Source of the DNA: Filomicrobium sp.
GTDB lineage: Bacteria > Pseudomonadota > Alphaproteobacteria > Rhizobiales > Hyphomicrobiaceae
Assembly: GCA_030665765.1 (NCBI GenBank)
Contig: DAOUZE010000004.1
Location: 1-34,622, forward strand
Direction: 5' to 3'
DNA length: 34,622 nt
Translations under genes and position numbers: made by a program
In this document: positions 13,684-27,932 of the stretch, piece by piece
Layout of the letters: the number at the start of each line of letters is the position of its first letter
How positions within the stretch are numbered: the first letter of the stretch is position 1
The notes under the pieces: generated by a model
What the model was told of the DNA's origin: nothing
Seen by the model: the letters and a program-made list of their open reading frames with translations, nothing else
Database searches by the model: none

Positions 13684-13953
13684 TCATGGTTCGTCATCCG
13701 ACTTATCGTGCTGTTCTTCCAGCTTTTCCTTATGATAGTGGAGTTCCTGGCTCTTGGCCTCAGCAGCCTCCAGTGCGGCTCGAAACGAGGCGATCTCGGC
13801 GTTCTTGGCGCGGATTTCAGCCTCGACGGCTGCGATCTGGCTGCGGAAAAGCAGCATCATACTCTCACGACCGATGGGTATGTCTCCCTGCAATTTGGAG
13901 CTTAAGACGTTGAAGGCAAATCCAATATTGCATTGCCTTTGTGACAAGCTCAT
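13684..13953 (-). CDS. Small coiled-coil protein, unknown function
   Basis: The ORF encodes up to 89 residues. The C-terminal ~58, from 'MMLLFRSQIAAVEAEIRAK', is a highly charged helix with heptad-like spacing ('EIASFRAALEAAEAKSQELHYHKEKLEEQHDK') that should form a coiled coil and ends in an acidic tail. The N-terminal part looks different and the true start may be the Met pair near 13860, preceded by a GAGAG. I do not recognise a family. It lies on the same strand as sucA and downstream of the broken XRE regulator. The compositional bias argues for a real gene, but it could also be a chance ORF. Confidence 0.5.
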   Translation of the reverse strand: MSLSQRQCNIGFAFNVLSSKLQGDIPIGRESMMLLFRSQIAAVEAEIRAKNAEIASFRAALEAAEAKSQELHYHKEKLEEQHDKSDDEP

Positions 13954-14016: not shown

Positions 14017-14798
14017 TCAAAGGTTGCCGATCAACTGCCTGATCGCGAGATCGGCGTCGGCGGGAAGTGAGAATTCGATCCGCAAATCACTGACGGTAAT
14101 GTCTGTGGCGGGACCAAAATGCGCGATCGCCGACACAAGTGACAACACCTTGTCGCCGAACCTGATTTTCGTCGGGATGAAGGGATGCGAAGCGCAGATG
14201 CCATGGTTCGCCGCTTGAAATACCGGAGCCGCCTTCAGGCCATCCATCAGTTCGGCAAGCTTGGGATCCCCACCGCTGGCGTTCAGTTCCGTCTGTAGCC
14301 GCGTGAGAAGATGATGGGCGACTTCGGGCCAGTTGCCGAAACTCTCCGTCAGCTCCGGATGATCCGAGATCATCTTCAGTATGTTGATCGGCGCCGGGCC
14401 GGCGCTCAAGCCGAAGATCGCCTCGCAGGAGGCGTTTGAATCGAGCAGGTTCCAATAGCGGTAGATTAGCACTGCAGGGTAAGGCATGTGCCGATCAAGC
14501 ATGAGATCAAGCGCCGCGCGAACATCCCGGAGGGCGGTGTCGTCAAGTGAGCTCTTCCGGTACTGGGGGCGAAGCCCGCTGCATTGAGTATGTTGTTGCG
14601 TTCAGCAAGCGGCATGCTCATGGCGTCGGCCAAAACAAGAACCATCGGGCGGCTCGGCTGCGCGCGTCCGGATTCCAAGAAAGAGATATGTCTTTGCGAG
14701 ACGTTGGCGGCGAGGGCGAGATGCAGCTGGCTCATTCCGCGACGGCCCCGCCAATCGCGCAGGCACTCCCCGAACGTCGTCTATGTCGGCGTGGTCAT
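14017..14798 (-). pseudogene. XRE-family regulator with MmyB-like ligand domain, disrupted
   Basis: Two minus-strand frames combine to one regulator of about 260 residues. The N-terminal part is a Cro/C1-type helix-turn-helix ('CLRDWRGRRGMSQLHLALAA', 'NVSQRHISFLESGRAQPS'). The second frame carries a PAS-like MmyB-type domain ('MPYPAVLIYRYWNLLDSNASCEAIFGL'). They join if one C is added to the C5 run (plus-strand G5 at 14565-14569), giving 'GFAPQYRKSSLDD'. A second lesion is an in-frame TAG at codon 6 after ATG 14798 (plus-strand 14781-14783); a CAG-to-TAG change would explain it. The alternative ATG at 14735 would delete the first HTH helix. It is divergent from the MAPEG gene, with a shared palindrome between them. 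Confidence 0.75.
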
Positions 14799-14829
14799 GG
14801 CTCTATCACAGCCTTTGTCGGTGCGGGCG

Positions 14830-14850
14830 CAATTACCTGGAAGGTAATTG
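14830..14850. promoter_or_regulatory. Perfect inverted repeat, candidate operator for the XRE regulator
   Basis: CAATTACC-TGGAA-GGTAATTG is an 8-base perfect inverted repeat with a 5-base spacer. It lies in the 117-base divergent region between the XRE regulator start (14798) and the MAPEG gene start (14916). Size, symmetry and position fit a dimer-binding operator that would control both genes. The assignment to this regulator is inference from context. Confidence 0.65.
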
Positions 14851-14915
14851 TTGGAGTGTCCGGCACACCCTAGATGCCGATGTCATCATCGATCGCAACT
14901 TAGAGGACCCCAAAC

Positions 14916-15315
14916 ATGATCGAAGTGGTGACCGCCGTGCTAGTGCTTTTTATTGTTCAGACCTTATCTTCCCCCGGCAATCCAGTACCTGGGTGAGGAT
15001 GGCTCGCTTGCTTTCCGTTCCGCTGTCGCGCTTGGTCCGTGCGATGCCCCGCCACCGATGCCTGCCATGGCGGGGCGCGCGCAGCGGGCCCTGCGTAACA
15101 TGATGGAAGCGATGTTCGTATTCGTACCGCTGGCGTTACTAGCGATCGTTTCGGGTAAGGACCAGGGCCTCGCCATGACCGCAGCGCTAACATTCTTAGG
15201 GGCCAGGGTAGCTTATCTTCCCGCGTATATGTCGGGTATTGTCGGTGTCAGGTCGCTGATCTGGGGTGTCGGCGCCGCCGGGCTCGCGATGATGGCGATC
15301 GCGCTATTGGAATGA
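14916..15315 (+). pseudogene. MAPEG-family membrane protein, frameshifted near N-terminus
   Basis: MAPEG proteins are small four-helix membrane proteins related to microsomal glutathione transferases and eicosanoid enzymes. The ATG at 14916 has GAGG 9 bases upstream and opens 'MIEVVTAVLVLFIVQTLSSPG', which then hits a stop. The rest reads in another frame: 'PAIQYLGEDGSLAFRSAVALG', the family motif 'GRAQRALRNMMEAMFVFVPLALL', and two further hydrophobic helices to 'GLAMMAIALLE'. Removing one C from the C5 run at 14971-14975 restores one ORF of about 132 residues. It is divergent from the XRE regulator, shares the palindrome at 14830-14850 and converges on sucD. Confidence 0.75.
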
Positions 15316-26817: not shown

Positions 26818-27814
26818 TACCAGACAGGCCCTGGCAACAGGCAGCCTGATCTATCGAGGGAACAATTGATTGCGTGACCGACGCCCTCACCGCTTTCAAA
26901 AGCATGCTCCGCGATCCGGCCCACGCATCAATCACCGGTAAAACCAACCCGGTCCTCGCTGGAATAGACATAGCTCACGCCCAGCGCCTCTTCGACAAGA
27001 CCGTCGCACCAAAGATGAGCAGTCAGTCGTGTCGGCCGCATCGACGGCACGCTCAGGATATGGCTAACCTCGCCCCAAATTTCGTCGGCCACAAACTCAA
27101 GATCGGCATCCTCGACCTCGCGGCTCCAGGATGGGGAGGCATGTACGACAATCGTTTCGCCGCGAGCGGTTGGCCCGGGTTTCGCATTGTTGCGCGCAAA
27201 CCAATGGATCAACTCCGATAGGTCAAAATAAATATCCTTTCTAGGAGGACCCACTCGTCGAGGCGCACCATTAGCGACCAGCAAGGGGACATGCGAACAC
27301 AGGCTAATTGGCCGGCTATTTCGTCGAATGGGCACAGAAAGAGCTTTGCCTGGGGCGCCAGGACACAGATGGCGACCGCAGAAAAAGGCTCAATAGATGT
27401 CCGGTCGTTGAACCAAATTCGCCAACCTTGTTGTGACTTCTACAATGTATGAACGACCCGGCTCGTGTAGATCCTTACGCCCTGCGCCAACGGACGCACG
27501 GGCGAAATCACTGGAATTCCAACAGACTTGTTGGCGATCGCCGCTGTCCTGTTGCCCTGCGCCGCCGACTGGCCGGGTTTCCAACGGGCGGCGTAACCAG
27601 ACTGAACAAGTTCAGTGATGAAGCCCCTGAAAATGCTGGAGTGACCGGTGATGTATTGAGCGCCATGATCATATGGCAGGACGCCGACACGCATCGTCGA
27701 TATGCGGCCACCGACGCTGCTGTTGGCTTCGAAGATATCAACGTAGTGGCCGGCGCGTCGCAATTCTCGAACGCCCGACAACCCAGCACCTATGATCGCT
27801 GTCAGGCTGGTCAC
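26818..27814 (-). pseudogene. Renalase-like FAD-dependent oxidoreductase, decayed
   Basis: The N-terminal piece (27440..27814) begins 'MTSLTAIIGAGLSG', continues 'GHYVDIFEANSSVGGRISTM' and 'YDHGAQYITGHSSIFRGF', typical of NAD(P)/FAD-dependent amine oxidase-like (renalase-type) proteins. The helix after GxGxxG is about four residues short ('GLSGVRELRRAG'). The C-terminal piece (26928..27335, another frame) reads 'LIHWFARNNAKPGP', 'IVVHASPSWSREVED' and 'GFTGD', then TGA (plus-strand 26928-26930) where the family has Trp (GDWC), and goes on in frame as 'CVGRIAEHAFESGEG' to a TAG near 26818. A middle segment is missing. Frameshift, nonsense and deletion together show a pseudogene. Confidence 0.8.
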
Positions 27815-27932
27815 AGTATTGATCTCTCATCATGCCATTAAGTCGCAGATGGACCGTCTGTGTATAGATTTATGAGGTGTGCGCAATAAGGGTCGAGTGG
27901 TTTATTCGATCAGCCAGGCCTCGCAAACCATC

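Follow-up and report, generated by a model that had tools for sequence, protein, structure and literature searches.

Related regulators and membrane proteins

The closest described relatives of the regulator analysed here are the MmyB-like/MltR proteins (PF17765; structure 3pxp; PMC3406030), which join an XRE-type helix-turn-helix to a PAS-like ligand domain and are encoded divergently from a putative target with which they share an upstream region. MltR has been crystallised with a fatty-acid-like ligand (myristate; 3pxp) and was proposed to be ligand-activated (PMC3406030). Targets in this group are SDR/MDR or antibiotic-related, which is a trend in actinomycetes and no strict criterion for MmyB-like/MltR regulators, and a term search of PMC3406030 did not find MAPEG. 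A compendium of XRE palindromic motifs (PMC12565409), as set out in its main text, covers autoregulatory XRE dimers with palindromes upstream and supports the general logic considered below; the palindrome motif described here does not appear in that main text, and the supplementary motif tables may already list it. Literature searches on the motif, on PF17765 and on MAPEG together with XRE returned nothing relevant. The MAPEG family (PF01124), which includes microsomal glutathione transferase 1 and prostaglandin E synthase, consists of small multi-helix membrane protein domains.

The locus in Filomicrobium sp.

The window, which is the whole 34,622-nucleotide stretch of Filomicrobium sp. DNA that was analysed, carries a regulator-MAPEG pair placed within the TCA-cycle cluster mdh-sucC-sucD / sucA:

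14017..14798, minus strand: pseudogene of an XRE regulator with an MmyB-like ligand-binding domain (Pfam HTH_3 and MLTR_LBD), carrying a nonsense codon and one frameshift
14830..14850, strand not applicable: predicted operator palindrome CAATTACCTGGAAGGTAATTG, with the family core CAATTACCTNNNAGGTAATTG, in most cases present once per genome
14916..15315, plus strand: pseudogene of a MAPEG-family small integral membrane protein (Pfam PF01124, E 9.4e-20), carrying one frameshift

The regulator shares the domain plan of MmyB-like/MltR proteins, with an MLTR_LBD domain (PF17765, E 1.7e-20) and an N-terminal XRE-type helix-turn-helix that is matched on the broken fragment (HTH_3, E 5.6e-6) and conserved in intact homologues, and it likewise lies divergent from the adjacent gene, with an upstream region common to both. 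The predicted structure of its homologue in G021, a genome of the same genus, has a mean pLDDT of 91.5, and the best match of this model is MltR itself (3pxp, E 2.4e-12). In contrast to MltR, the recognition helix differs here, a 21-bp operator can be predicted, and the partner is MAPEG, or mostly another small membrane protein elsewhere, rather than an SDR/MDR or antibiotic-related gene. The MAPEG homologue in G021 (locus L006) is intact, has 132 aa and is related to MGST1 (phmmer E 1.8e-4); the copy in the window, which differs from the named family members in being bacterial and frameshifted, keeps the Arg, Asn, Glu and Tyr residues that are invariant in the MAPEG alignment.

A first-pass annotation, made from the letters and open reading frames alone, had described a perfect palindrome between an MmyB-type XRE regulator and a divergent MAPEG gene, both of them broken. 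The Pfam domains, the comparison with the intact homologues in G021 and the repeat itself bear this out: positions 14830-14850 form a perfect 8-N5-8 palindrome, CAATTACC-N5-GGTAATTG, between the minus-strand regulator and the plus-strand MAPEG gene. That annotation also had the end coordinate right, and the regulator start codon lies at 14798. Allowing up to three mismatches, the window contains no other match (0.08 expected), and the 4.0-Mb, 542-contig assembly contains no other with fewer than three. The palindrome is perfect in the window, in G021 and in the sister genome G022 (locus L117), and the spacers differ between all three.

G021 carries the regulator-MAPEG pair in the same place as the window. 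The remaining six genomes of the genus showed no such module near sucA; among them, the sucD-sucA junction could be read through only in G015 and G016, and in G015 the two genes are ~250 bp apart. What lies upstream of sucA differs from genome to genome within the genus (L209-L214), with other genes there, such as one for a cation-efflux-like membrane protein. Between the regulator and sucA, the window also contains an 89-aa open frame (13684-13953, minus strand) with no Pfam match, which is conserved in G021 (dN/dS 0.18) and has 59% identity in G017, a genome without the module.

Linkage of the palindrome to the regulator family

Across 398 genomes of the order, the extended pattern at up to one mismatch gave 22 sites, every one of them at an MLTR regulator locus, against no reversed-control matches; at two of these loci (L180 and L181) the site is ~400-500 bp from the regulator. 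This ties the palindrome to the regulator family, and so the first-pass annotation's own refuting case, a palindrome unlinked to that family, is not what was found. Palindromes are common between divergent genes, and the site could be read as that of another regulator whose nearness to the MLTR gene is coincidental, since in 103 genomes of the family at up to two mismatches 3 of the 12 sites lay away from MLTR genes; those three, however, equal the reversed-control count and so stand at background level, with the other nine at MLTR genes, and together with the complete linkage across the order this makes coincidental nearness highly improbable. One two-mismatch palindrome (L156, G026:C5:793184) has no adjoining MLTR gene and is flanked by a MAPEG-like gene and an MFS-type transporter; it is at background level and possibly due to chance.

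Scanned for exact matches, the genome collection gave at least 120 stretches with the palindrome. Among the matches listed, 34 of the 120 adjoin an MLTR gene and span Proteobacteria, Planctomycetes, Cyanobacteria, Acidobacteria, Rokubacteria and relatives of Leptospira, every MLTR gene found in the 120 stretches sits at the palindrome, and a T...A spacer occurs in 27 of the 34 MLTR-adjoining palindromes versus 13 of the 86 others. The exact extended site was present in the window only among 399 genomes of the phylum, which indicates that the exact form is rare. A many-site regulon was rejected, there being one site per genome where the site is present, as befits a local regulator. A phage origin was likewise rejected, as the exact extended site was not found in viral contigs.

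The regulators that carry the site have the recognition helix S.RH.SF.E.GR in common. An MLTR regulator of a different helix type (L028) is without the site, and some MLTRs of the same family (L013 and L014) have no recognisable copy of it. Symmetric variants of the site were also observed: CAACTACC-type sites lie beside regulators with E[LVI] instead of E[ST] before GR or DR, regulators that may be a single clade, and in G192 both half-sites are changed (CAATTCC/GGAATTG) between an intact MAPEG gene and an intact MLTR gene. The two symmetric variants point to both half-sites being read directly by the regulator, as judged from the sequence changes. Intact MLTR-MAPEG pairs thus carry the palindrome, exactly in G021 and as a symmetric variant in G192, where their lacking it had been named as a refutation.

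Promoter pattern and predicted control

When 46 loci were aligned on the palindrome, A and T peaks appeared at matching places on both flanks, consistent with the outer TTG of the palindrome forming the first three bases of a -35 hexamer, followed after 17 bp by a -10 hexamer. In a filtered set, TANNNT was present on the regulator side in 18 of 38 loci (1.6 expected; 0 of 2000 shuffles) and on the partner side in 6 of 37 (1.8 expected; 7 of 2000 shuffles). An independent set of 21 further loci (L164-L184) showed the partner-side peak at the same place and a regulator-side TATAAT peak at 31-32, not 33. No -10 peak was found at palindromes that are not beside an MLTR gene. Outside the palindrome, the rest of the -35 hexamer is a poor remnant that does not match ACA. 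Both divergent promoters probably have their -35 TTG within the site, and the promoters at the window locus were read from the sequence on the basis of the family-wide -10 peaks at matching spacing:

14804..14832, minus strand: predicted regulator promoter, with -35 TTGCGC starting inside the left end of the operator and a -10 that is weak here
14848..14876, plus strand: predicted MAPEG promoter, with -35 TTGTTG starting inside the right end of the operator, a 17-bp spacer and -10 TAGATG (poor match)

The palindrome very probably serves the adjacent XRE/MmyB-like regulator as its dedicated operator, overlapping both -35 elements such that one dimer would control both divergent genes; the overlap is drawn from the base pattern, alongside the observed domains, site-regulator linkage, conservation and lesions. 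In the proposed mechanism, a regulator dimer, as expected from the family, would read both half-sites, each of which would provide, in its outer TTG, the start of the -35 of one divergent promoter, and a single bound dimer would control both the regulator gene and the small membrane protein gene, here MAPEG. Coverage of both -35 elements suggests repression, including autorepression, and repression of both genes through the covered -35 regions is modestly favoured over class-II-type activation. Release would be by a small, probably lipid-like ligand in the PAS-like domain, as the family suggests; by analogy with the MltR-myristate structure (PMC3406030), a fatty-acid-like or hydrophobic ligand may be expected for the family of the window's regulator.

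The same operator could also act with the opposite sign, the ligand-bound dimer being a class-II-type activator centred at about -43 from both start sites. This is possible but rather doubtful: MmyB has been described as an activator, ligand-induced DNA binding is the model proposed for MltR (PMC3406030), the centre of the site falls close to where a class II activator binds and what remains of the -35 elements beyond the palindrome matches poorly, and against these points stands the shape of the predicted overlap. Symmetric overlap with two -35 elements that include the regulator's own is typical of autorepression.

Partner genes across loci

Among 61 loci, the partner belongs to one 4-helix family in 18, some of them fused to SRPBCC or hydrolase domains, is a DUF2834-like 3-helix protein in 17, belongs to another 4-helix family in 11 and is MAPEG in 2, the window's own MAPEG being additional; helices were counted with a simple hydropathy scan. 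The two 4-helix families have no Pfam match, and a few loci have soluble partner proteins. The pairing of MAPEG with MLTR recurs in another family, in G192, where both genes are intact, and among the best MAPEG matches of the order, an adjacent MLTR gene was found only there, besides the window's genome. MAPEG is one partner option among unrelated small membrane-protein families, and MAPEG as a general partner was rejected, given that most of the 61 loci have other small membrane proteins. The idea of a self-contained regulator-MAPEG unit therefore holds in that the palindrome belongs to the regulator family, but not in taking MAPEG as the defining partner. A wider reading, tentative and somewhat short of probable, is that a widespread Gram-negative subfamily, recognisable by its S.RH.SF.E.GR helix and by a symmetric operator with both -35s, controls an interchangeable small membrane protein, implying a shared membrane-lipid or hydrophobic-compound function.

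Decay of the regulator and MAPEG genes

The lesions in the window are as follows:

14565..14569, minus strand: G homopolymer run near which the regulator frame is lost, a 1-nt deletion relative to G021 and G022
14781..14783, minus strand: in-frame TAG at regulator codon 6, absent in G021 and G022
14966..14966, plus strand: extra nucleotide shifting the MAPEG frame, a 1-nt gain near 14966 relative to G021

A harmless in-frame 6-nt deletion is also present near the end of the window's regulator. In G022 the regulator and MAPEG are both broken too, by a 1-nt deletion in the regulator's helix-turn-helix region and by a 2-nt insertion and a 9-nt deletion in MAPEG, with the operator intact and no disabling lesion in common with the window. 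The first-pass annotation had seen joint loss of a functional unit in the two broken genes, and the breakage of both by different lesions in G022 supports this.

Between the window and G022, dN/dS was 0.22 for MAPEG and 0.23 for the regulator (sucD 0.05), and values of ~0.2 indicate that selection acted on both genes through most of their past and that the breaks are recent; old neutral decay was rejected on the same values. Read from these sequences, the pattern implies that the decay of both genes is recent and that the predicted operator was left as a relic. Backup copies were rejected as well, since the window's genome (G000) yielded no further MLTR or MAPEG gene.

Alternatively, the breaks may be sequencing or assembly errors, with both genes intact in the living organism. 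Two of the three lesions are 1-nt indels, one of them within a homopolymer, the assembly consists of 542 contigs, another gene in the window is apparently degenerate, and the low dN/dS that persists between the window and G022 is compatible with error. One lesion, however, is a nonsense codon, three lesions fall within ~1.3 kb while mdh, sucC, sucD and sucA nearby have open frames, and the regulator and MAPEG carry other lesions in G022, where mdh, sucC and sucD are likewise open, so that error is an unlikely explanation and recent decay is preferred.

The apparently degenerate gene is a truncated flavin amine oxidase fragment (27443-27826, minus strand; Amino_oxidase, E 1.8e-9), possibly a second pseudogene. 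Elsewhere, the regulator reads as two ORFs at L009 (G100), through an in-frame stop, and at L032 (G024), through a frame change, the partner gene being open at both. Regulator breakage is therefore not confined to Filomicrobium.

Implications

The module is very probably a real regulator-operator-target unit, a Gram-negative version of the MmyB/MltR arrangement that is in recent decay. The analysis provides a predicted operator for a regulator subfamily for which no published site was found in the literature searched, and places several small membrane-protein families that have no known function under a common control logic. If the proposed subfamily function is true, unrelated proteins, namely MAPEG, the DUF2834-like proteins and the two 4-helix families, would serve one membrane-lipid or hydrophobic-compound function. 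The loss of both genes by different lesions in two genomes is natural evidence that the regulator and MAPEG work as a unit.
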